Positions 27,006 through 49,798 of a stretch of 64,000 nucleotides of DNA are shown piece by piece. The notes under the pieces are model-generated. The model was not told the DNA's origin, did no database searches, and worked only from the letters and a program-made list of their open reading frames with translations. A program made the translations under genes and the position numbers. The DNA is taken from positions 248,001 through 312,000 of the forward strand of contig NZ_CP020700.1 of the NCBI RefSeq assembly GCF_003932715.1, in the 5' to 3' direction. This DNA comes from Streptomyces tsukubensis (GTDB lineage: Bacteria > Actinomycetota > Actinomycetes > Streptomycetales > Streptomycetaceae). Numbering within the stretch: the stretch's first letter is position 1; every line of letters begins with the position of its first letter.

Positions 27006-27659
27006 TCAGCGGCCCGAGACCGCCGGGGCCCGGCGGGACGCGGAGAAGGTCATCGCCGGGGTACTGCTGGCGACGCTCACCACGGCACCGCGTTCCCGAT
27101 CCGTCCACTCCAGCAGCCGCAGCCCTTCCCGACCGGCTTTCAACAGGGCTTCCCTGCGCACCCACAGCCTCAGCAGCGCCGGGCCGGGGTCCGGCTCGGC
27201 CGTGGCCGCGTGCAGTTCGGCCGCGGGGAGCAGCTGTCTCAGCATCGCCACGGGCCCGGGACGGCGCGCCGCGGGCTCCACGTCGATGCCGACGGCACCG
27301 GGCCCGGCGGCCGCGGCCACGAGTCCGTCGGTATGGCTGAGGCTCACCCCGATCCCGGGGTGTCCGGGCAGATACGGACGGCCGTGCCCGGAGCGGCCGC
27401 ATTCGGCGCAGTACTGCGCGGGTGCCGCATCGCGCGGGGGCCATCCGGTGAACCGCGCCACGCACAGCCGGAGCAGCAGCCGGGCGGCCACGACGTCGTC
27501 GCGGCGGCCCGGCAGTCTGATCGGCGCCAGCCGGCGCAGCTCCCAGGGTTCGAGGAGGCCCTCGTGCAGCTCGGGATGGGCGAGGACCTCCGCGGTGGTG
27601 GCCACCGCGGCCACGGCGGGCCGGGCCTCGTCGAGGGCCGGAGCCCCAACGCCGGTCAC
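27006..27659 (-). CDS. Sfp-type 4'-phosphopantetheinyl transferase
   Basis: A 217-aa cytosolic enzyme that converts apo carrier proteins to holo form using CoA. The magnesium/CoA motif Gly-Ile-Asp-Val-Glu is in 'GAVGIDVEPA', and the second motif W-x-x-K/R-E-A-x-x-K is 'WVRREALLKAG'. The GTG start lies 10 bp after the carrier-protein stop, so it is the last gene of the ligase-ACP-PPTase operon. It presumably primes both that free carrier protein and the NRPS carrier domains. Confidence 0.9.
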   Translation of the reverse strand: MTGVGAPALDEARPAVAAVATTAEVLAHPELHEGLLEPWELRRLAPIRLPGRRDDVVAARLLLRLCVARFTGWPPRDAAPAQYCAECGRSGHGRPYLPGHPGIGVSLSHTDGLVAAAAGPGAVGIDVEPAARRPGPVAMLRQLLPAAELHAATAEPDPGPALLRLWVRREALLKAGREGLRLLEWTDRERGAVVSVASSTPAMTFSASRRAPAVSGR

Positions 27660-27669
27660 GGGCGGGCTC

Positions 27670-27927
27670 TCATCCGGCCGCGGTCGCGGCGGCGGCGGTT
27701 CCCGACGGGGTCAGGAAGCGCTGTTCCACCCGGCCGAGGGTACGGAAGTCGTCGATGGTGACTTCCTGGAGGTCGATGCTGCTGCCGGAGATCTCCTCCA
27801 GCAGCTCGACGAACTCCACGAAGTCCATGGAGTCGATGAGCCGGGCCTCGATGAGGTCCTCGTCCTTGTCGACGGGGCCGTCGAGGCCGGGGTTCTTCTC
27901 GTGGAGCCAGGCGGCGATGCGTTCCAT
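27670..27927 (-). CDS. Free-standing acyl/aminoacyl carrier protein
   Basis: An 85-aa carrier protein. The phosphopantetheine serine is Ser33 in 'LIDSMDFVEFVELLEE', followed by the acidic recognition helix and a short Ala-rich tail. The Asp-Ser-Met form resembles the carrier proteins paired with aminoacyl-tRNA-synthetase-like ligases. It lies between that ligase gene (139 bp upstream) and the PPTase gene. It probably carries an aminoacyl thioester made by the ligase for the PhyH oxygenase and the stand-alone condensation enzyme encoded divergently. Confidence 0.88.
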   Translation of the reverse strand: MERIAAWLHEKNPGLDGPVDKDEDLIEARLIDSMDFVEFVELLEEISGSSIDLQEVTIDDFRTLGRVEQRFLTPSGTAAAATAAG

Positions 27928-28065
27928 GGGGTGGTTCCGCTCCTTGGGTGTTCCGGAACGGTCGGGACCGGTTCCGGAGTCGACGGGAAGACGCGGTTGC
28001 GGACAGCGGGAGGCGGCCGTGAGGCGGACGGCCGCGGGGCGCCGGGTTCCGGCGGGACCGTGCGG

Positions 28066-28923
28066 TCAGGTCCGGGCGGCGCGCAGTCGGTCCAGGGCCC
28101 GCTCGGCGGTGCCGTGGGCGAGGATCATCGCGTGGACCCAGCGTTCGACACCGAAGGCCACACAGGCGCTGTAGGCGGGTCCGTGGGACCCCGCGCGGAT
28201 GTCGAGGCGCTCGCCGAAGAAGTTGCGGTGCCGGTTGACGGAGGCGATGGCCGTGCCGTCGGGTGCGCTGAACTCGTGCTTGACGGGGTCGAGCGCCATC
28301 AGCTTGGCGCGGGAGCCGCCCCGGTCGTAGAACGGGTCGTCGGCCGTGGCCCGGGTGAGGTCGAGGCCGAGCCGGCCCGCGGTCTCCAGGACGAACGCGG
28401 AGCCGCGGTCGAGGTGGTCGACCGCGCCGTCCTTGGTGCCGAGGTAGAGGACCTCGCGCATATGGAAGCCCCAGAGGCGGCGCAGACCGTCGTAGTGGGT
28501 CTCGTTGCGGAAGCAGCGGCCGGTCGCGGAGAGCCGCAGACCTTCGTCGCCGACGTCCGTTCCCTCCAGCGAGAGCAGCAGTCCGTAGCAGGTGGCGGAC
28601 GGCAGCAGATGGCCGGTCGGCCGGAGCGGGAGTTCACCCGGTGACTCCCCGGCCGCCAGGCCGTCGAGGGCGTCCGGGGCGAAACGCCCGGCGGAGACGC
28701 CGAGATGGGGGAAGTTGCGGAAGAAGTCGAGGCGGGCGAGGCCCGCGACCGACAGCAGCGGCGGTCCCACCACTTCGGGGGCGGCGAGCCGGTCCGCGAG
28801 GCCCGTGAGCAGATCGTCCAGGCCGTGCAGCAGGGCGGTGTGGACGGGGTCGAGCGTGAGCAGACCCGCGCCGGGGTTCTTCAGTCGGCCGTCGGGTAAC
28901 GCGGTGACACTGGCTGTACTCAT
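28066..28923 (-). CDS. Class-II aaRS-like amino acid:[carrier protein] ligase, TTA-containing
   Basis: A 285-aa truncated class-II synthetase fold without a tRNA-binding domain. Motif 2 is around 'GRCFRNETHY' with the loop 'RRLWGFHMREV', and motif 3 is 'ACVAFGVERWVHAM'. Zinc ligands Cys112, Glu157 and Cys254 are spaced like the Cys/Glu/Cys site of atypical seryl-tRNA-synthetase homologues that adenylate a small amino acid and pass it to a carrier protein rather than a tRNA. The neighbouring free carrier protein fits. The amino acid is probably small, as known members use Gly or Ala, but this cannot be read here. TTA is codon 9, so expression should need bldA. A GAGAGGG ribosome-binding site precedes the ATG. 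Confidence 0.85.
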   Translation of the reverse strand: MSTASVTALPDGRLKNPGAGLLTLDPVHTALLHGLDDLLTGLADRLAAPEVVGPPLLSVAGLARLDFFRNFPHLGVSAGRFAPDALDGLAAGESPGELPLRPTGHLLPSATCYGLLLSLEGTDVGDEGLRLSATGRCFRNETHYDGLRRLWGFHMREVLYLGTKDGAVDHLDRGSAFVLETAGRLGLDLTRATADDPFYDRGGSRAKLMALDPVKHEFSAPDGTAIASVNRHRNFFGERLDIRAGSHGPAYSACVAFGVERWVHAMILAHGTAERALDRLRAART

Positions 28924-29135
28924 GGAAAAACCGTTCCCTCTCGCATGGGCGAACCGTTCGGGACCGTGAGCCGGGGGGTTCCGGCCGGAGACGCAGCGGC
29001 AGGACCTCGTCGGCGCGGACGTCCCACGAGCGTGGTCGCCGTTGACCGCGGCGCAGCGGAGAAGCCTGACCGGGCCCTCGTCGGAACGGGCCGGAGCTGC
29101 GGCGCTGGGACGGGACCCTAGGGCAACCATTCGCT

Positions 29136-29151
29136 AGTTGTCTAGACCAAA
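29136..29151. promoter_or_regulatory. DasR (dre)-like palindrome 1
   Basis: AGTTGTCTAGACCAAA resembles the DasR/GntR operator consensus A(C/G)TGGTCTAGACCA(C/G)T at about 13 of 16 positions, with a perfect GTCTAGAC core. It lies in the 549-bp divergent region 28924-29472 between the ligase operon and the PhyH operon. HutC-type relatives could equally bind. Confidence 0.5.
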
Positions 29152-29236
29152 GCGACCGAACCAACGAACGCGACCAGTTGGAGATTTCGGGCGGTGCGCG
29201 CACCGGTCCAAATTCGGCCCGGCCCTTGACAAGGGT

Positions 29237-29252
29237 AGTGGTCTGGACCAAT
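29237..29252. promoter_or_regulatory. DasR (dre)-like palindrome 2, inside a probable promoter
   Basis: AGTGGTCTGGACCAAT matches the dre consensus at about 14 of 16 positions. A TTGACA -35-like hexamer ends just before it (29226-29231), so a bound repressor would block the plus-strand promoter of the PhyH operon. It is centred 101 bp from palindrome 1. Confidence 0.5.
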
Positions 29253-29472
29253 TCTGCTGGGCAGCGCGGCACCGGATACGCCGCCGCGAAGGCGCCGTCC
29301 CACCCCGGTCGCCGGGGTGCGACCCCTGCCGAGGGCCGACTCCCGCTGCCCTCCGACGTCCGCCGGGCCGCCCCGACCGGTTCACCGGGCATCCGGCCCG
29401 CCCCGTCCCGGCGCCGCGGTCCACGCCCGACCGCCGAACCGTTTCCCCTGATCGCCGACTTGGAGAAACCGC

Positions 29473-30570
29473 ATGATGGCATCGACCGCACCCGGCCGCA
29501 CCCGGCGCCCCCGACTCCACCGGGCGGCCTCCGGCCGCCCGTACTTCAGCGCGGACGGCGAGTCGTATCTGGCCCAGACCGCGTTACGGGAGCTCAAAAA
29601 GGACCACCCGCTCCGCGTACTGTCCGAGGAGGACTTCGCCCACTGGCAGACGTACGGCTACGTCATTGTCCGGGAGGCGATCCCGGCCGGGTCGGCCCGG
29701 CGGCTGCTGGACTTCACCTGGGACTTCCAGGGTCTGGACCCGGACCGGCCGGAGAGCTGGTACGAGGACCGGCCGTTCCGCTCCGAGCTGGACCAGCAGC
29801 TCCACGTCTACGGGTTCGTGGAGGCCTACCACCACCAGTTGCTCTGGGACAGCCGCCAGTCCCAACGGGTGTACGACGCCTTCGCCGACGTCTGGGACTG
29901 CGAGGAGCTGTGGGTCACCCTGGACCGGCTCAATCTCAACCCCCCGAACGTCGGAAACCGTGACCGGGCCCTGATCGAACCGACGGACCGCGGCTTCGAC
30001 ATCGAACTCCACTGGGACATCGACACCACGCTCGGCGTCCCGCCGCAACGGGTCCAGGGCATCATCGCGCTCAACGACACCCGGCCCGAGACGGGCGGCT
30101 TCCAGTGCTGCCCCGAGCTGTTCCGGCAGTTCGACGAGTGGAAGGTCCGCCAGCCAGCGGACCGGGACCCGCTGCGCCCCGCGATCGACCGTGCCGAACT
30201 CCCGGTCGTCCGGCCCGAACTGCACCCCGGCGATCTGCTGATCTGGAACGGCCTCCTCGCCCACGGCGTGGCCCGCAACGCCTCCGAGAACGGGGTGCGG
30301 GCCGTGCAGTACCTGTCGATGATGCCCGCGCTCGAAGAGCACACCAGGCTGCGGCAGTCCCGGGTCGACTCCTGGCGGCATCTGCGCACCCCGCGCTGGA
30401 ACCGCACCCTGGTCGGCGATCCCGTGCTCCACGAGTCCAAGCGCTATCCCACCGCGTCCCTCACCGAACTGGGCAGCAAACTGCTCGGACTCGGCTCCTG
30501 GCACGACACGGACGAGTCCGTTCCGGCCGGCGGGCAGAGCGGGGAGCCGTCGTGCGCCGCGTCTGTCTGA
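29473..30570 (+). CDS. PhyH-family Fe(II)/2-oxoglutarate dioxygenase, TTA-containing
   Basis: A 365-aa non-haem iron oxygenase of the phytanoyl-CoA dioxygenase family. The facial triad is visible as His180-x-Asp182 ('ELHWDIDTTLG') and His264 ('LIWNGLLAHGVARN'). Family members often hydroxylate amino acids bound to carrier proteins or free. Its place at the head of an operon opposite the amino acid:carrier protein ligase suggests beta- or gamma-hydroxylation of the loaded amino acid. Codon 38 is TTA (29584-29586), predicting bldA control. A GGAG ribosome-binding site precedes the ATG. The next gene overlaps its 3' end by 19 bp. Confidence 0.85.
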   Translation: MMASTAPGRTRRPRLHRAASGRPYFSADGESYLAQTALRELKKDHPLRVLSEEDFAHWQTYGYVIVREAIPAGSARRLLDFTWDFQGLDPDRPESWYEDRPFRSELDQQLHVYGFVEAYHHQLLWDSRQSQRVYDAFADVWDCEELWVTLDRLNLNPPNVGNRDRALIEPTDRGFDIELHWDIDTTLGVPPQRVQGIIALNDTRPETGGFQCCPELFRQFDEWKVRQPADRDPLRPAIDRAELPVVRPELHPGDLLIWNGLLAHGVARNASENGVRAVQYLSMMPALEEHTRLRQSRVDSWRHLRTPRWNRTLVGDPVLHESKRYPTASLTELGSKLLGLGSWHDTDESVPAGGQSGEPSCAASV

Positions 30571-31880
30571 CCCTTCCCACCAACCGGGCCTGTGCCACGA
30601 CCATCGCGGCCGTCGCCGGGGAGGCCGCCGACGGCGCCCGCCGGTTCGGCGTCGAGGTGCAGCTGCTGGTCCTGGACTCGTCCGGCGCCCCGGAGCGGGC
30701 CGGGCACCGGGCGGCGATCGCCGCCCTGCCCGAAGCCCCCGGGGTGGTCATCCACCATCTCGACGAGGAACAACAGCGGTCCTTTCTCCGGAAGGTGATC
30801 CTCCGGTCCGGTGCGGCGGCCCCGGACCGGATCCTCCGGCTGATGCTGCCGTCCGGAGTCTCCTACGGCGCCTGCACCAACCGCGCCTTCCTGTTCGCCG
30901 AGGCCCTGGGCTGCGCCTCGGTGCACCGCCGGGACTCCGACAGCGGCTACCAGACCTTCGGCGGGGAGCCCGTTCACCCCCTCGTCCACGAGCTGACGGC
31001 CCTCGGGCGTCCCGCGGCCGAGGCGGCGGAGCTGGTGACCCGGAGCAGGCTCGACCCCGCCCTCCGGGAGCGGACGGTCGCGCTGGTCGGCGGCTCCTTC
31101 GTGGGTGAGATGTCGGTGGACGTCGCGGAGATCCGCCGGCTCGACCCCGCCGTCTACCGCGATGTGGTCGGGCTGTCCGTACCGGCGGGCTATCCGGAGA
31201 TCTGGCGCGCGAACCTCGTCGACGAGGCGTTCCGCGGTGCCGGGACCGAGCCGTTCACCGGCGATCTCACCACTCTCACCCGTGTCGCCCCGGCCCGGGT
31301 GGACATGTGCAACATCGGCCTGGACCGGGAGGTCTACGGACGGGTGCCGCTGCCGCCCGCGACCGACACCATCGGCAGCGACTACTTCCTCGTCCACCTC
31401 GTTCACGACGCCCGGCTCCCCGGGGTGCTGCACAACCGCCATATCGTCAACTACCACACCGACGAGCGCCGTACCGGCGCCGGCTTCCTCGCCTACCAGA
31501 CGCGTTTCGCGAAGTTCCTGCTCGCGGCCCGGTACTTCGACGACGTGTACGCGCGGCTGCAGGCGGCGGACGGGGGGCTGCTCGACGACGGGGGCCGGAT
31601 CCGCGCCTCCACCGTCGCCGCCTGCGTCAGGGACAGCAGGGGCGCGGACCGGGACGCCGACGCGGAACGGCTCGGCCTCACGGAGGTCCTCGACGTGCTC
31701 GACCGCTCGTACCGGAAACTGGGCGGCCGCTACGCCGCGGTGGCAGACGGCCTCGCGGCCCGCCGCGGCGGACTGCTGGACGAGGCCCGCGCGGACACCG
31801 CGGACTTCGCCCTCCTCATCGACGCCTGGGAGCCCCTGGTCCGCGCCTGCCGGAACGAAGGATTCCGCGCAGATGGTTGA
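30552..31880 (+). CDS. GT-A-fold-like protein of unknown function (possibly DUF6271)
   Basis: A 442-aa soluble protein that I cannot name with confidence. The start 'VCLTLPTNRACATTIAAV', the strand 'VQLLVLDSSG' and the Asp-x-Asp-type motif in 'CASVHRRDSDSGYQ' resemble a nucleotide-diphospho-sugar (GT-A) transferase fold, with later conserved-looking His/Asp residues in 'HNRHIVNYHTDERR'. I have a weak recollection of a Streptomyces family (DUF6271) of this type. GTG 30552 overlaps the PhyH gene, so translation is coupled. It could glycosylate or otherwise modify the carrier-bound unit or final peptide; this is inference from context alone. Confidence 0.5.
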   Translation: MRRVCLTLPTNRACATTIAAVAGEAADGARRFGVEVQLLVLDSSGAPERAGHRAAIAALPEAPGVVIHHLDEEQQRSFLRKVILRSGAAAPDRILRLMLPSGVSYGACTNRAFLFAEALGCASVHRRDSDSGYQTFGGEPVHPLVHELTALGRPAAEAAELVTRSRLDPALRERTVALVGGSFVGEMSVDVAEIRRLDPAVYRDVVGLSVPAGYPEIWRANLVDEAFRGAGTEPFTGDLTTLTRVAPARVDMCNIGLDREVYGRVPLPPATDTIGSDYFLVHLVHDARLPGVLHNRHIVNYHTDERRTGAGFLAYQTRFAKFLLAARYFDDVYARLQAADGGLLDDGGRIRASTVAACVRDSRGADRDADAERLGLTEVLDVLDRSYRKLGGRYAAVADGLAARRGGLLDEARADTADFALLIDAWEPLVRACRNEGFRADG

Positions 31881-31937
31881 CCGCCCCTGCCCCTCGGCCG
31901 CCCGTAGCAGCTCACCGAAACCCTCGAAAGGCACCAC

Positions 31938-31991
31938 ATGAACGCATTACCCGGAACCTCACCCGAGTGCGGGCCGGTACCGGCCTCATGA
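31938..31991 (+). CDS. 17-codon leader ORF with a TTA codon, coupled to the condensation gene
   Basis: ATG 31938 is preceded by a good GAAAGG ribosome-binding site. Codon 4 is TTA, and its TGA overlaps the ATG of the condensation gene (ATGA, 31988-31991), which itself lacks a good ribosome-binding site. The arrangement looks like a bldA-sensitive translational switch. It is too short to prove as a coding sequence; an in-frame GTG at 31967 is an alternative start for the downstream gene that would bypass it. Confidence 0.45.
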   Translation: MNALPGTSPECGPVPAS

Positions 31992-33799
31992 CGGTGAGCC
32001 GACAGGCAGTGAGCGAAGAGCGGTCGGTCCGGCCGACTGTCGAACGGACCGTCACCGTCCGCTACTCGGGCGGACTGCAGCGCCACGGCCCCGTCACCAT
32101 GGGGCAGGCCAATATGATCCGCTGCATCCTGCGGGACGACCCGACGCACATCAACATCCACGCCGTCTGGCCGGTGCCCCCGGAAACCGGGCCCGAACCG
32201 GTGATCGACGCACTGCGTGCCCTGGTGGTACGTCACGAAGGGCTGCGTACCACCTTCCCCGGGGCCCCGGACGGGCCGCCCCGCGAGCAGCGGGTCTCGG
32301 CCTCGGGAGCGTTCACGGTCACCGTCCTCGACCTCGATCACGACCACGACGACGCGCGGCTGCCCGGGGACACCGCGGCGTACGCCGAATCGGTGGCGCG
32401 CGACGCCCGCGCCGGCCGGTTCCGGCTCGACCGGGACTTCCCGCTGCGGATCACACTGATCGCCCGGCGCGGGGAGCCCCTCTTCGTGGCGCTGGCGGCC
32501 AGTCACGCCGTCACCGACGGCAGCGCACTCGCCGTTCTGCGGGAGGAGTGGCTCGCGCTGCTGGCCGGGGAGTCGCTTCCGCCCCCGGCCGTGCTCACCC
32601 CGCTCGACCTCGCCGAAGAGGAGGCGACCGAGGCCGGGCTGCGCAGGTCGGAGGCGTCCCTGCGGTACTGGGAGCAGATCATCCGCACCGCTCCGCAGGC
32701 GATGTTCGCCGAGCCGGGCGCCGTGGGGACCGAGGTCCGGACGCCGCAGCTCACCCTCCGCTCGCGGCGCGGGGCCGGGGCGCTGGCCCGGGTGGCGCAG
32801 CGTACCGGCGCGGTTCCGTCCACCGTACTGCTGACCGCCTGGTGCACCCTGATCGCCCATCGCACCGGTCAGGACGCCTGTGTGGTCGCCGTTCCGACGG
32901 CCAACCGGTTCCGGCCGCTGCTGGCCCGCTCGGTGAACACGCTGTCGCAGGACTCGCTGCTCTGTCTCGACGTCCGGCAGCCGTCCTTCGACACACTGCT
33001 GCGCCGGGCGTGGGGCGCCGCGCTCAACGCCTACCGGCACAGCAGGTTCGATTCGCTCGCCCTGTGGGAGATGATCGGGCGGGTCACGTTCGAACGCGGC
33101 AGCAACTTCGCGCGGGACGTCGTCTTCAACGACGTCTCCACGCTCCCCGCGGCACCGTCCGCACCGGCCCTCTCCGCCGGGTCCCCCGGCCCCGAGCTGG
33201 AACTGACCCGGGGTCCGGACCAGCTGCTGCCGACCCGGGCCCTGACCTTCGTGTACGAGACGGACCCCCTGCTCCGTCTGGCGATGTGGGCCGACCCCGC
33301 GCTGTTCCCCGGTGACGAGGCGGAGCTCTTCCTCACCGGTCTCGTGCGCCTCCTGGAGGCGGCCGCGGTGGACGACGTACAGCTCACCGCCCTCACCGAA
33401 ATCACGGGCGTCCGGCCGGTGGAGCGGGACGGCCGGTGGCGGCGGGTGGACAACTGCTGGGTCTCGCCGCCCGCCGTGGCCGCATCCCTGAGCCGGGTCC
33501 TCGGCGGCGTACCCGTGCAGGTCACCGTGGAGGATCCGGTTCCGGACACCCCGCCCGGCCCCGGCGCCGGGGAGGTCCTGACGGCCTGGATCACCGCGGG
33601 CGCCGTCCTGCCGACACCGGAACAGGCCCATGCGGCGCTGATGGAGACCCTTCCCGGGCGCCCCGGGCTGCTGGCTCCCCACCGCTATGTGATCGTCGAC
33701 GACCCGCCGCCGCGGGCCGGGGACGGCGGTGCACGGCTCGGACGGCGGATTCTCTCGGAAGGGGACGGCCGGAACCGGCCGATATCGCATGACCATTGA
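31988..33799 (+). CDS. Free-standing NRPS condensation-domain enzyme
   Basis: A 603-aa single condensation-fold protein. The catalytic motif HHxxxDG appears as Ser172-His173-x3-Asp177-Gly in 'ASHAVTDGSAL': the second, catalytic His is kept and the first is replaced by Ser. Other landmarks are 'VVRHEGLRTTFPG' and 'SVNTLSQDSLLCLDV'. The C-terminal ~120 residues beyond the usual domain are Pro-rich and unassigned. It probably transfers the carrier-bound amino acid to another amine or hydroxyl, in the way SgcC5-like or stand-alone C enzymes do. Its 3' end overlaps the MFS gene by 11 bp. Confidence 0.8.
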   Translation: MTVSRQAVSEERSVRPTVERTVTVRYSGGLQRHGPVTMGQANMIRCILRDDPTHINIHAVWPVPPETGPEPVIDALRALVVRHEGLRTTFPGAPDGPPREQRVSASGAFTVTVLDLDHDHDDARLPGDTAAYAESVARDARAGRFRLDRDFPLRITLIARRGEPLFVALAASHAVTDGSALAVLREEWLALLAGESLPPPAVLTPLDLAEEEATEAGLRRSEASLRYWEQIIRTAPQAMFAEPGAVGTEVRTPQLTLRSRRGAGALARVAQRTGAVPSTVLLTAWCTLIAHRTGQDACVVAVPTANRFRPLLARSVNTLSQDSLLCLDVRQPSFDTLLRRAWGAALNAYRHSRFDSLALWEMIGRVTFERGSNFARDVVFNDVSTLPAAPSAPALSAGSPGPELELTRGPDQLLPTRALTFVYETDPLLRLAMWADPALFPGDEAELFLTGLVRLLEAAAVDDVQLTALTEITGVRPVERDGRWRRVDNCWVSPPAVAASLSRVLGGVPVQVTVEDPVPDTPPGPGAGEVLTAWITAGAVLPTPEQAHAALMETLPGRPGLLAPHRYVIVDDPPPRAGDGGARLGRRILSEGDGRNRPISHDH

Positions 33800-35063
33800 C
33801 GACGTACCTCTCCAGGAGAAGCGGCAGCCGCTGCCCAGTCCGTGGAGATCGGTGAACTTCCGGCTCTTCTTCACCGCCCGCAGCGCCTCACTGCTGGCCG
33901 ACGGCATGCTCATGGTCTCGCTGACCACCGCCGTCCTCGGGGCGGGATACGGGGCGGGCGGGGTGGGCTACGCGCTGGCCGCGTGGATGGCGCCGATCGC
34001 GCTGCTGGTGCTGTTCGGCGGAGTGCTCGCCGACCGGTTCACGCCACAGGTGATGATGATCGGCGCCGATGTGGTGCGGATGCTGGCCATGCTCGTGCTA
34101 GCGGGGCTGCTGGTCGCGGGTGATGTACGGCTCTGGCAGATCATGGCGCTGATGGCTGTCAGCGGTGCCGCGACCGCCATGTTCCAGCCCGGTCTGGCGA
34201 GCATGGTGCCGCAGGTCGCCGAGGACATCCAGCGCGGCAACGCGCTGCTGCGGATCTCGGAGGCGATGAGCGCGCTGATCGGCCCGGGGCTCGCCGGTCT
34301 GGTGGTGGCCTACTGGGACGTGGCGGGCTCGTATCTGGTGATTGCGGCGGCCTATGCGCTGAGCGCGGTCGGGCTGGCGCCGCTGCGCAGGCTGAGGACC
34401 GTACGGGACGAGGGCGACGACCCGCTGCTGCAGCGGCTGCGCACCGGATGGCACGAGTTCAGCTCCCGCCCCTGGCTGTGGGGCGTGATCGCGATCTGGG
34501 CGGTCTACGGTCTGTTCGTGTTCGGCCCGGCCATTCCGCTGGGGGCGGCGCTGATCACCGAGCAGCACGGGTCCGCGGGCTACGGCTGGATCGCCTCGGC
34601 CGACGGTGCCGGCACGATCGTCGGCGGGCTGCTGGGAATGCGGGTACGGCCCCGCCGGCCGCTGGTCGCGGGGGCCTGTGCGATGTTCTGTTTCGCCCTC
34701 AATCCGCTGGCGCCCGCGCTCGGCTGGAACTTCACGGCCACCGCGCTCACCGGGGTGCTGGCCGGCTGCGGTTTCGCCTTCTGGGGTGTGATGTGGGCGA
34801 CGAGTGTGCAGTCCCATGTTCCGCTGGCGGTGCTGAGCCGGGTCTACGCCTATGACGTCGCCGGGTCGATCATGGTGATTCCGCTGGGCCGGGCGCTGTC
34901 CGGTCCGGCGGCCGACGGCTTCGGTGCCGATCGGGTGCTGCTCTTCTCCTCCGTGATGGGTGTGGTGTGCATCGTGGCCATGCTCTGTGTGCCCGCCATC
35001 CGCGGGCTGGTCCGGGAGCCGGCGGCCGCGACGGCGGTGGAAGGGGGCGGTTCCGGCCGCTGA
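33789..35063 (+). CDS. MFS exporter of the peptide cluster
   Basis: A 424-aa major facilitator with 12 predicted helices. The N-terminus 'NFRLFFTARSASLLADGML' and the loop 'VLFGGVLADRFTP' (the A-motif Gly-x3-Asp-Arg) match the enterobactin/macrolide exporter-like (MFS_3) group. It is translationally coupled to the condensation gene (11-bp overlap) and ends 11 bp before a strong bidirectional terminator. It most likely exports the cluster product, or protects against an intermediate. Confidence 0.85.
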   Translation: MTIDDVPLQEKRQPLPSPWRSVNFRLFFTARSASLLADGMLMVSLTTAVLGAGYGAGGVGYALAAWMAPIALLVLFGGVLADRFTPQVMMIGADVVRMLAMLVLAGLLVAGDVRLWQIMALMAVSGAATAMFQPGLASMVPQVAEDIQRGNALLRISEAMSALIGPGLAGLVVAYWDVAGSYLVIAAAYALSAVGLAPLRRLRTVRDEGDDPLLQRLRTGWHEFSSRPWLWGVIAIWAVYGLFVFGPAIPLGAALITEQHGSAGYGWIASADGAGTIVGGLLGMRVRPRRPLVAGACAMFCFALNPLAPALGWNFTATALTGVLAGCGFAFWGVMWATSVQSHVPLAVLSRVYAYDVAGSIMVIPLGRALSGPAADGFGADRVLLFSSVMGVVCIVAMLCVPAIRGLVREPAAATAVEGGGSGR

Positions 35064-45756: not shown

Positions 45757-45785
45757 TTGACCTGCGGCGCGACGCTTCCTATCGT
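45757..45785 (+). promoter_or_regulatory. HrdB-type promoter of htpG
   Basis: TTGACC (45757-45762), 17-bp spacer, TATCGT (45780-45785). The expected start is near 45792, ~34 nt before the htpG ATG. Confidence 0.7.
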
Positions 45786-45812
45786 TGATCGAACTCTTCA
45801 ATGGTCGACGAT
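45781..45812. promoter_or_regulatory. Inverted repeat over the -10/+1 region of htpG
   Basis: ATCGTTGATC (45781-45790) and GGTCGACGAT (45803-45812) are an imperfect inverted repeat (8 of 10) with a 12-bp spacer. It does not match CIRCE or the HspR box HAIR, so a different repressor or activator is likely. Confidence 0.5.
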
Positions 45813-45825
45813 TAGGGGGAAAGCG

Positions 45826-47715
45826 ATGACATTACAGTCGGATACGGAAACGCGTAGTTTTCAGGCCGAGGCGGCCCAGATTCTGGACCTCATGGCCCAT
45901 TCGCTCTACAGCAACAAGGAGATTTTCCTCCGTGAGCTGATCTCGAATGCCTCCGACGCGATCGACCGGCTCCGTTTCGAGCGGTACGCCGACCCCGGAC
46001 CGGCCGACGGCGAATCGGACGATGCGCCGCGGATCCGTATCTCGTTCGACAAGGACGCGGGTACGGTCACGATCGCCGACAACGGCATCGGGATGAGCCG
46101 GCAGGAGGTGATCGACAACATCGGCACCATCGCCCGCTCGGGCACCGCCGATTTCCTCCGTTCGCTCACCGGGGACCAGCGCCGTGACGCCGAGCTGATC
46201 GGCCAGTTCGGTGTCGGCTTCTACTCGGCCTTCGTCGTCGCCGACCGGGTGGTGCTGACCACGCGCCGGGCGGGGCTGCCCGCGTCCGAGGGGGTGCGCT
46301 GGTCGTCGGACGGCAAGGGGGAGTACGCGCTGGAGGCGGTGGAGCGCGCCGAGCACGGCACCACGATCGTCCTGGAGCTGCGGGAGAGCGAGGACGAGCT
46401 GCTGAGCGAGTACCGGCTGCGGTCGATCGTCCAGCGGTACTCGGACCACATCACGCAGCCGATCGTGCTGTCGGACGACGACACCGCCGTCAATCAGGCT
46501 TCGGCGCTGTGGACACGTCCCAGGAGTGAACTCAGCGAGCAGGACTACCACTCGTACTACCGGAATCTCACGCACGACTACTCCGATCCGCTCGCCCATG
46601 TGCATACGAAGGTGGAGGGGCGCTACGAGTACACGCTCCTGCTGTACATCCCGTCCCGGGCCCCGCACGATCTGTGGCTGCCACAGACCCGCGGCGGTCT
46701 CCGGCTGCATGTGCGGCGGGTCTTCATCCTGGAGGACACCGGCCAACTCCTGCCGGACTACCTGCGGTTCGTGCGCGGGGTCGTCGACTCCGCCGATCTG
46801 CCGCTGAACGTCTCCCGGGAGATCCTCCAGAGCAGTCATGCCGTCGATCACATCAGGTCCAGCGCGGTCAAGCGGGTGCTGAAGCTCCTCGGCGGGCTGG
46901 CGGCCGACGAGCCCGGGAAGTACGCGGACTTCTGGAAGGAGTTCGGCGGTGTCCTGAAGCAGGGCGTGGCCGACGACCCCGCCCACCGTGAGGACCTCGT
47001 CGAGCTGCTGCGCTTCACCTCCACGCGGTCGGGCACCCAGGACGCCGACGTGTCCCTCGCCGACTACGTCGACCGGATGAAGGACGGCCAGGACAAGATC
47101 TACTACCTGCTGGCGCCGGGGCAGTCCTCGGCCGCGGCGAGCCCGCATCTGGAGGCGTACCGGGCCAAGGACATCGAGGTGCTGCTGCTGAGCGAGGCCG
47201 TGGACGGTTTCGTCGTCTCCGGCCCGCTCCAGGAGTACCGGGGCAAGCGGCTCCGGTCCGTGACGCAGGGCCCGCCCGACTTCGGCACCCTGGAGGACGA
47301 GGCCGAGAAGGAGGCCGCCGACCGGGCGGACTCCGACTACGCGGCGCTGCTCGGCCTGCTCAAGGCGCATCTGGCGGGCAAGGCGTACGACGTACGCGTC
47401 ACCAGCCGGCTGACCACCTCCCCTGCCTGCATCGTGGCCGACGGGGTGGAGACCGATTTCACCACCGCGCAGCGGCTTCGCGGTTCGGGGCTGCCGAACC
47501 AGCCGATTCTGGAGATCAACCCCGGGCATCCGCTGGTGCGGCGGCTCAACGAGGACCGGGACGATCCCCGTCTGGCCGAGTGGGCCCATGTCCTGTTCGA
47601 CCAGTCCGTGCTGACCGCCGGTGCCCGGATCGAGGAGCCGACCGCGTTCGTCACCCGGCTCAACGAGCTGCTGCTCTCCCTCACCGGGGACGGTTCGCCG
47701 GACGCCTCGGACTGA
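45826..47715 (+). CDS. htpG: HtpG, HSP90-family chaperone, TTA-containing
   Basis: A 629-aa HSP90. The N-terminal GHKL ATPase has 'LRELISNASDAIDRLRF' (Asn for Mg), 'IADNGIGMSRQEV' and the lid 'GQFGVGFYSAFVVAD'. The middle domain has 'LPLNVSREILQ' with the catalytic Arg, and the dimerisation domain ends the protein. ATG 45826 follows GGGGGAAAG. TTA is codon 3, very unusual for a housekeeping chaperone, so this copy seems dedicated to the cluster. HtpG is known to be needed for albicidin and colibactin-type assembly-line products, and a role in folding or stabilising the NRPS is likely here. Confidence 0.93.
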   Translation: MTLQSDTETRSFQAEAAQILDLMAHSLYSNKEIFLRELISNASDAIDRLRFERYADPGPADGESDDAPRIRISFDKDAGTVTIADNGIGMSRQEVIDNIGTIARSGTADFLRSLTGDQRRDAELIGQFGVGFYSAFVVADRVVLTTRRAGLPASEGVRWSSDGKGEYALEAVERAEHGTTIVLELRESEDELLSEYRLRSIVQRYSDHITQPIVLSDDDTAVNQASALWTRPRSELSEQDYHSYYRNLTHDYSDPLAHVHTKVEGRYEYTLLLYIPSRAPHDLWLPQTRGGLRLHVRRVFILEDTGQLLPDYLRFVRGVVDSADLPLNVSREILQSSHAVDHIRSSAVKRVLKLLGGLAADEPGKYADFWKEFGGVLKQGVADDPAHREDLVELLRFTSTRSGTQDADVSLADYVDRMKDGQDKIYYLLAPGQSSAAASPHLEAYRAKDIEVLLLSEAVDGFVVSGPLQEYRGKRLRSVTQGPPDFGTLEDEAEKEAADRADSDYAALLGLLKAHLAGKAYDVRVTSRLTTSPACIVADGVETDFTTAQRLRGSGLPNQPILEINPGHPLVRRLNEDRDDPRLAEWAHVLFDQSVLTAGARIEEPTAFVTRLNELLLSLTGDGSPDASD

Positions 47716-47876: not shown

Positions 47877-48530
47877 ATGCGAATTCTGGTGGCCGAGGAC
47901 GAACGCTTCCTGGCGGATCTGGTGGCGGAGGGGCTCCGCAAGGAGGCGATGGCGGTCGACGTCGCCTATGACGGGGCCGCCGCGCTGGAACGGCTCGGCG
48001 TCAACGACTACGACGTTCTGGTCCTCGACCGCGATCTGCCCCGGGTGCACGGTGACGACATCTGCCGTGAGCTGGCACAGCAGGGGGGACGGGTCCGCAT
48101 TCTGATGCTGACCGCGTCCGGCACGGTGCACGACCGGGTCTCCGGGCTGAATCTGGGCGCGGACGACTATCTGGCCAAGCCGTTCGCCTTCAGCGAGCTG
48201 GTGGCGCGGATCAACGCGCTGGGCCGCCGGGCCGGGCCGCCGCTGCCTCCCGTGCTGGAGCGCGGGGACATCACCCTGGACACGGGCCGGAGGCAGGCGT
48301 TCCGCGACGGTCACTATCTGCCGCTGTCCCGTAAGGAGTACGCGGTACTGGAGGTGCTGATGAGGGCCCGGGGCACGGTCGTGAGCACCGAGGAGCTGCT
48401 GGAGCGGGCCTGGGACGAGCACACCGATCCGTTCACCACCGTCGTGAAGGTGACGATGAGCAAACTCCGGTCCAAGCTGGGCGACCCTCCCGTCATCGTC
48501 ACCGTCCCCGGAAGCGGGTACCGGCTGTGA
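47877..48530 (+). CDS. OmpR-family response regulator, CutR-like
   Basis: A 217-aa two-domain regulator. The receiver has the acidic pair in 'VAEDERFLADLV', phospho-acceptor Asp51 in 'DVLVLDRDLPRVHGDD', Thr in 'LMLTASG' and Lys in 'DDYLAKPFAFSEL'. The OmpR winged helix covers ~125-217 and ends 'VIVTVPGSGYRL'. The sequence is close to CutR of the Streptomyces CutRS system. Its stop overlaps the kinase GTG by 4 bp (GTGA). The short leader has only a weak GGGG ribosome-binding site. It is probably involved in stress or secretion sensing; a link to the cluster is positional. Confidence 0.88.
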   Translation: MRILVAEDERFLADLVAEGLRKEAMAVDVAYDGAAALERLGVNDYDVLVLDRDLPRVHGDDICRELAQQGGRVRILMLTASGTVHDRVSGLNLGADDYLAKPFAFSELVARINALGRRAGPPLPPVLERGDITLDTGRRQAFRDGHYLPLSRKEYAVLEVLMRARGTVVSTEELLERAWDEHTDPFTTVVKVTMSKLRSKLGDPPVIVTVPGSGYRL

Positions 48531-49798
48531 AGCGGGTACGGCCCGGGGCGCGTTCCGGCCGGCCGGTTCGGTTCGGACGGCGCGCCCTGGCTCCGCTGCG
48601 CGGCTCGGTCCGGGCCCGGATGACGCTGCTGTACGGCGGTGTGTTCACGGTCATCACGCTGGCGGTACTGATCACGGCGCTCCGTCTGCAGAAGGGAATC
48701 GTCGACGGCAAGGTCGACCGGTTCGTGAAGCCCGGTTCGGTGGCCGGGATCCCGTGCGAGATGCGGCCGCCGGAGTCGCCGTGTTCGGCCGTGCCGTACC
48801 GGCCTTCCGCGGACACCGCTCCGGCCGCGTCCCCGCCGGGGCCGCACACGGTCCTCGACCGGGAGGGGAAGGCGCAGCTCCAGCACGATCTCGCGAGTAC
48901 GCAGCTGGTCGTCAGTCTGATCGCCATCGGGGTGATCATGGTGCTGGCCTTCGTGGTGTGCTGGTGGCTCACCGGCCGGCTGCTGCGGCCTCTGCAGCGG
49001 GTCACCACGACCGCGCGCCGGCTGTCGTTGTCGACGCTGCACGAACGGATCGCGCTGACGGGGCCTCGGGACGAGCTGAAGGATCTGGCCGACACTTTCG
49101 ATGCCATGCTGGACCGGCTGGAGCATGCGGTGGCGAGTCAACGGCGTTTCGTGGCCAATGCCTCCCATGAGCTGCGGACGCCGCTCGCCATCCAGCGGAC
49201 CGCGATGGAGGTCGGTCTGGCGGATCCGTCGCCGGAGCGGGTGGCCCGGATCCGGGAGGAGCTGCTGCGGGCGACCGAGCGGTCGGAGCGGTTGATCGAA
49301 GGGCTGCTGGTGCTCGCGCAGGGTGAGCAGGAGTTGACCGTGCGGGCTCCGGTGGATCTGGCGACGGTGGTCGACCAGGTCATCGGGGAACATCTGCCGT
49401 TCGCCGAGCGCCGCGGTATCGCCGTCGGCGCCACCACCCGGCCGGTCACGGTCGCGGGCGACGAGGTGCTGATCACCCGTCTGGTCGCCAATCTGGTGCA
49501 GAACGCGATCCGGCACAACGACGAGGGCGGGCGGCTGCTGGTCGACCTCTCCCCCGCCGGTGGCCTGGTGGTGAGCAATACGGGCCCGGAGGTGCCGCCG
49601 GAGCAGGTCGGCGAGTTGTTCGAACCGTTCCGGCGGTTGCACGCGGACCGTACGGGATCGTCGGAAGGCGCGGGTCTCGGGCTGTCCATCGTGGCGGCGA
49701 TCGCGCAGGCCCACGGCGGTACGGTGCGGGCCGCGGCCAATCCCGGGGGCGGGCTGGCGGTCACCGTGGCCCTGCCGGTGCTCGTGCCCTCGGGGTGA
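48527..49798 (+). CDS. Membrane sensor histidine kinase, CutS-like
   Basis: A 423-aa kinase. A basic N-terminus leads to TM1 (~33-52). A ~75-residue extracytoplasmic loop contains two cysteines ('GIPCEMRPPESPCSAV') that may form a disulfide. TM2 (~127-149) and a HAMP domain follow. The H-box 'NASHELRTPLAI' has phospho-accepting His214, the N-box is 'NLVQNAIRHND' and the G-box is 'GAGLGLSIVAAI'. It is translationally coupled to the response regulator and convergent with the NRPS gene. The cysteine pair in the sensor loop fits a redox- or envelope-sensing role as proposed for CutS; the signal is not known. Confidence 0.9.
   Translation: MKRVRPGARSGRPVRFGRRALAPLRGSVRARMTLLYGGVFTVITLAVLITALRLQKGIVDGKVDRFVKPGSVAGIPCEMRPPESPCSAVPYRPSADTAPAASPPGPHTVLDREGKAQLQHDLASTQLVVSLIAIGVIMVLAFVVCWWLTGRLLRPLQRVTTTARRLSLSTLHERIALTGPRDELKDLADTFDAMLDRLEHAVASQRRFVANASHELRTPLAIQRTAMEVGLADPSPERVARIREELLRATERSERLIEGLLVLAQGEQELTVRAPVDLATVVDQVIGEHLPFAERRGIAVGATTRPVTVAGDEVLITRLVANLVQNAIRHNDEGGRLLVDLSPAGGLVVSNTGPEVPPEQVGELFEPFRRLHADRTGSSEGAGLGLSIVAAIAQAHGGTVRAAANPGGGLAVTVALPVLVPSG

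Follow-up and report, generated by a model that had tools for sequence, protein, structure and literature searches.

The closest described relatives of the system considered here are the amino acid:[carrier protein] ligases, such as Bradyrhizobium Bll0957 (PDB 3mey), which have a class-II aminoacyl-tRNA synthetase core, no tRNA-binding domain, a Cys/Glu/Cys triad that we take to be the zinc ligands of 3mey, and an adjacent gene for a free carrier protein. In mycothiol biosynthesis, a cysteinyl-tRNA synthetase (CysRS)-like enzyme directly couples an amino acid with a glycosylated amino sugar. This pathway is named as analogous in the excerpts of PMC2922099 and PMC9437257 used here; from other gene neighbourhoods, Iyer et al. 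(2010) predicted that the carrier protein ligases aminoacylate the amine of a sugar (same portion of PMC2922099). Here we describe a ligase of this kind in a 64,000-nucleotide stretch of Streptomyces tsukubensis (contig NZ_CP020700.1, hereafter the window), within a block of seven genes at 27006-35063. The block is conserved and independent, it is common to many Streptomyces, and it adjoins a peptide-antibiotic cluster of which it is no part. Its product is most likely an aminoacylated, glycosylated small molecule; the cluster would probably link an amino acid with a sugar-like compound. That 27006-35063 is a self-contained seven-gene biosynthetic cluster with such a product, merely adjoining the hydroxyphenylglycine/dihydroxyphenylglycine (Hpg/Dpg) non-ribosomal peptide synthetase (NRPS) cluster, is the reading we prefer, with slightly better than even confidence.

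The original prediction had described a separate mini assembly line made of a ligase, a carrier, a phosphopantetheinyl transferase, a PhyH oxygenase, a GT-A-like protein and a free condensation enzyme, and the sequence bears this out: all six proteins are present where it had placed them and are apparently intact. It had not included the major facilitator superfamily (MFS) gene at 33786-35063, which completes the block. The oxygenase and DUF6271 genes overlap by 22 bases, the condensation and MFS genes by 14. The features are the following.

27006..27659, minus strand: 4'-phosphopantetheinyl transferase (PPTase), 217 amino acids (aa); PF01648, 40.4 bits for a cut-off of 25
27670..27927, minus strand: free carrier protein, 85 aa, phosphopantetheine site S33; PF00550 below threshold (17.5 for 20.8 bits)
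28066..28923, minus strand: class-II-synthetase-like amino acid:[carrier protein] ligase, 285 aa, C112/E157/C254; matches to NF005479 and 3mey
29138..29149, plus strand: predicted DasR-like operator, one mismatch to TGGTCTAGACCA; counterpart in 58 of 58 named regions
29239..29250, plus strand: second predicted DasR-like operator, one mismatch; counterpart in 58 of 58 named regions
29473..30570, plus strand: PhyH-type Fe/2-oxoglutarate (2OG) oxygenase, 365 aa; PF05721, 39.2 bits for a cut-off of 22
30549..31880, plus strand: DUF6271 protein, 443 aa, modelled GT75/MtdL-like GT-A fold, putative glycosyltransferase; Pfam DUF6271, 693.6 bits
31988..33799, plus strand: stand-alone condensation enzyme, 603 aa; PF00668, 74.8 bits for a cut-off of 30.6
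33786..35063, plus strand: MFS exporter, 425 aa, seventh gene of the block; PF07690, 77.5 bits

The ligase was searched for (E up to 1e-90) in 392 genomes of the same genus and found in 39. In 37 of these it is 78-100% identical to that of the window and has a DUF6271 gene nearby, within 3 kb in 36 genomes and at about 6 kb in G410. All seven genes are found in the same order and orientation in 54 of 67 named ligase loci, many loci being closely related, so that such counts are not numbers of independent events. Of the 13 incomplete loci, four are cut by contig ends (L155, L198, L212 and L213), L194 lacks only a PPTase above the 45% threshold, two are hybrids described below (L160 and L180), and six (L200, L207-L211) have a more distant ligase (53-67%) and no DUF6271 in the available flank. 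The block is also found in named strains of S. griseus, S. globisporus and S. clavuligerus.

In the window, the MFS gene ends 64 bases from DpgC; DpgA, DpgB and DpgC exceed their NCBIfam cut-offs, and the large NRPS is genuine. The original prediction placed the block inside this NRPS cluster and had it supply a carrier-bound hydroxylated amino acid to the arylglycine peptide. This is correct only in the sense that the two adjoin in the source genome. Matches to the window DpgA (E up to 1e-40) are present in six of the 37 block-bearing genomes, including the source genome, which is the only one where DpgA adjoins the block; the other five matches, one of which is just 38% identical, are at least 0.7 Mb away or on a different contig, and 31 genomes have none. 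Thirty-six of the 37 are therefore without DpgA near the block, and none of the available flanks of the 67 named ligase loci contains a Dpg gene (these co-occurrence statements rest on DpgA, DpgB and DpgC). Moreover, 27 loci pair the oxygenase with DUF6271 and have no carrier. By this measure the block occurs independently of NRPS genes, the first of the two findings that the original prediction had named as together refuting it. A role as an NRPS loading module is rejected on this ground, membership in an arylglycine NRPS pathway is not supported, and delivery to the NRPS product is very improbable. The block on the one hand, and the Dpg genes with the large NRPS on the other, are two different clusters. 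Between the Hpg/Dpg genes and the large NRPS lie, at 45757-47715 and 47877-49798, an HtpG chaperone gene (above its NCBIfam cut-off) and VanR/VanS-like two-component genes (below).

Regarding the ligase, C112/E157/C254 aligns with the Cys/Glu/Cys of 3mey (phmmer E 4.3e-21, over the core only). We checked motifs in 24 block loci, picked for carrying the ligase and several of them from the same genomes as the named loci; "invariant" hereafter tolerates gaps in up to two rows. The triad is invariant in all 24, and it is retained in a 20%-identical ligase on an Apilactobacillus plasmid. The top NCBIfam match of the ligase, NF005479 (103 bits, E 1.5e-29), lies under the cut-off of 357, which is possibly narrower than the family. 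The ligase profile covers residues 29-274 of 285, and there is no tRNA-binding domain. All 24 loci have a free carrier gene beside the ligase, with its serine S33, and a PPTase; the carrier scores under threshold in both of its Pfam matches (17.5 for 20.8 bits and 18.3 for 32). The sequence supports a ligase of the class-II synthetase type served by a carrier and a PPTase of its own, as predicted. Unlike Bll0957, this ligase, which has a single match within the source genome, is embedded in a complete oxygenase/GT-A/condensation cluster. More distant ligases (39-46%) in L048, L049, L060 and L064 adjoin, as judged by eye, heme-oxygenase-like diiron-type proteins and AcpS-like PPTases; the ligase-carrier pair seems to be reused across several cluster families.

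In the oxygenase, the HxD...H triad and the 2OG arginine (H180, D182, H264 and R276) are invariant across all 24 block loci. Fe/2OG enzymes that work on carrier-bound amino acids exist elsewhere, and all genes concerned are in one conserved block; it may be, then, that the oxygenase acts on the aminoacyl carrier, and that the modified residue is afterwards the substrate of DUF6271 and the condensation enzyme. We examined 30 chosen ligase-free loci (28 from 27 of 86 genomes, plus two plasmid records). In 27 of them an oxygenase 69-77% identical to that of the window adjoins DUF6271, and none of the 27 contains a relative of the ligase, carrier or condensation enzyme; the three without oxygenase (L123-L125) carry distant DUF6271s. 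Hydroxylation on the carrier, as the original prediction had it, is therefore disfavoured, and the carrier-linked hydroxy amino acid appears unlikely to us.

The 27 ligase-free loci represent a second type of DUF6271 cluster, which consists, for example at 6373-11752 in L126 and 6315-11725 in L118, of the oxygenase, DUF6271, a LysA-like pyridoxal phosphate (PLP) decarboxylase (below cut-off), a GNAT protein and another MFS protein. Relatives of the latter three are each found in 25 of the 27 loci and a GH3-like gene in 19; L105 is an exception that has none of the four, L134 lacks the decarboxylase, and L129 lacks the GNAT and MFS genes. The DUF6271 tree and the oxygenase tree each split 25 ligase-type sequences from 27 others (support 0.90 and 0.996, respectively). 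Two hybrid loci combine the ligase, carrier and PPTase with the oxygenase and DUF6271: L160 (2255-12059), and L180 (653-14516), which also has the decarboxylase and GNAT genes. ABC-transporter-like genes lie between the modules in both, and L180 also encodes a heme-oxygenase-like protein (both identified by eye). Together, the ligase-free pairing, the trees and the hybrid loci show two units, the oxygenase with DUF6271 and the ligase genes, which occur in several combinations. Such separable units make hydroxylation on the carrier less likely and favour a shared product. We set aside an apparent mutual exclusion of the two DUF6271 cluster types (none shared in 392 genomes, hypergeometric 6e-5), since this test ignores phylogeny and considers at most four candidates per genome, and since plasmid records of S. 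clavuligerus hold both types, in two different strains.

The predicted structure of DUF6271 is a GT75/MtdL fold (GT-A, core and C-terminal helix), with 315 residues superposed and a metal site made of DxD and His. In this it resembles the GT75 mutases MtdL and UDP-arabinopyranose mutase (UAM), as described in the portion of PMC9937993 considered here. MtdL and rice UAM are its nearest fold matches, ranking above transferases, so that DUF6271 could be a nucleoside diphosphate (NDP)-pyranose/furanose mutase; the activated sugar that it provides would then be passed on by an enzyme whose gene lies elsewhere. It is important to note that the nucleophile of the mutase, R159 in MtdL, has no counterpart: no Arg is invariant between D131 and G181 in 22 DUF6271 sequences, and R159 falls opposite a gap in an alignment which is itself non-significant. 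In addition, a Pfam scan of the window protein (E up to 10) returns PF19787 and no RGP match (PF03214), and the block holds no other glycosyltransferase; we regard the mutase as improbable. Membership in GT75 was considered and not retained: the fold fits, but the sequence profiles do not match significantly and the catalytic arginine is absent. As the profiles fail to match, it is the fold that carries the assignment of DUF6271 as a putative glycosyltransferase. A sequence search of the PDB with DUF6271 and the oxygenase returned no convincing relative (best E 0.54 each).

The condensation enzyme matches PF00668 over residues 48-315 of 603. The complete HHxxxDG motif is absent from the window enzyme, which reads SHAVTDG, a Ser replacing the first His; the second His and the Asp of the motif (H173 and D177) are invariant across all 24 block loci. 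In nine of the 56 named loci having both, a single reading frame encodes DUF6271 together with the condensation enzyme (a tenth apparent fusion, in L205, looks broken and was excluded), and, among the matches listed, 13 of 120 condensation homologues carry both Pfam families. These fusions suggest that the two proteins act in consecutive steps.

Computation shows that the block is conserved and separate from the NRPS genes, that the oxygenase pairs with DUF6271, and that fusions, hybrid loci and operator sequences exist, and it gives DUF6271 a modelled fold. The chemical steps, their order and the regulator we infer as follows. The oxygenase and DUF6271 would build a hydroxylated, glycosylated core out of primary metabolites. 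In parallel, the PPTase would arm the carrier, and the ligase would adenylate an amino acid (a small one, by analogy) and load it. The condensation enzyme would then join the aminoacyl group to this core through an amide or ester bond, and the MFS protein would export the product, while a DasR-type (GntR/HutC) regulator would act at both divergent promoters. The original prediction had offered a sugar-like acceptor as one of two branches, and this branch gains support from the fold, the fusions and the hybrid loci.

Several observations weigh against the aminoacylated glycoside. The block has no acceptor gene besides the oxygenase and DUF6271. Among the hybrids, L180 shows no relative of the condensation enzyme, and that of L160 is only 34% identical. 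Two ligases of 60 and 66% identity (G203 and G391) have no DUF6271 match, and of the 123 genomes out of 392 that have a DUF6271, 86 are without a close ligase. An NRPS-like match flanks three loci with or near the block (L032, L162 and L186). The sequence profiles of DUF6271 and MtdL match non-significantly (E 0.11, or 0.1 with other settings), and the AlphaFold2 model of the oxygenase, built with 18 sequences, reaches a pLDDT (predicted local distance difference test) of only 37.5. Last, this reading does not account for the split transketolases of S. clavuligerus and Apilactobacillus, described below.

The regulator was approached through the DasR consensus, A(G/C)TGGTCTAGACCA(G/C)T in the part of PMC4398421 considered here, a site being defined as at most two mismatches to the 12-base core TGGTCTAGACCA. 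In the window and 58 named loci, each of the 59 gaps between ligase and oxygenase carries two sites, and one carries three; control windows elsewhere in the same loci have 0.017 sites per region. The window contains no further such site within its 64 kb, and two sites in it are by themselves unremarkable (30 of 100 shuffles reach two). Sequences that qualify as dre operators of the DasR regulon thus lie upstream of the block genes in 59 of 59 regions, and such a site is also present within 500 bases upstream of the oxygenase in 17 of the 27 ligase-free loci. The regulator may be DasR itself, a paralogue, or another member of the GntR/HutC family that recognises these sites. To judge by the conserved operators, N-acetylglucosamine (GlcNAc) would be a switch worth trying should the cluster be silent.

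The block resembles the systems of Iyer et al., as far as the portion of PMC2922099 used here describes them, in combining a ligase, a carrier, an oxidising enzyme and carbohydrate genes, an amide to a sugar amine being predicted there. Those systems use a Rossmann-fold redox enzyme and another conserved amide-forming protein (e.g. Agrobacterium Atu2574); the window block, on the contrary, uses PhyH, DUF6271 and the condensation enzyme. Like the mycothiol pathway, it is proposed to bring an amino acid onto a glycosylated amino sugar by means of a synthetase-like enzyme, but it interposes a carrier and a condensation enzyme where the CysRS-like ligase acts directly. In the open-licence PubMed Central (PMC) literature, judged by titles and abstract openings, we found no paper on this cluster, and the word DUF6271 occurs in none. 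Tentatively, and with somewhat less than an even chance of being right, we propose a new class of cluster: a GT75-like glycosyltransferase that lacks the mutase arginine would make a glycoside, the ligase, carrier and condensation enzyme would aminoacylate it, and a GlcNAc-sensing regulator of the DasR type would control the genes. If this is true, the amino acid:[carrier protein] ligases gain an assigned role, which recurs across Streptomyces and, in divergent form, on plasmids of honeybee Apilactobacillus, and which a compact, order-conserved cluster of seven genes makes testable. DUF6271, a family without stated function, now has a modelled fold and a testable activity.

On a plasmid of S. 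clavuligerus, a split transketolase pair (L103, 15010-16653) immediately follows the seven-gene block. None of the 67 named loci has this arrangement, so the link may be a matter of chance. Plasmids of Apilactobacillus kunkeei carry a distant DUF6271 (20-22%) within 10 kb of a triad-bearing ligase and a carrier. In one of them (OX335149.1; L106, 8210-18608), the ligase, carrier, distant DUF6271 and a split transketolase are found together, as well as two ATP-grasp genes, an aminotransferase and a methyltransferase. A 32.9 kb A. kunkeei plasmid with ATP-grasp genes is described as a putative polyketide plasmid in the part of PMC9648514 considered here; since A. kunkeei plasmid records of about 32.9 kb carry the distant DUF6271, that plasmid may be the same ligase/DUF6271 plasmid, read differently.

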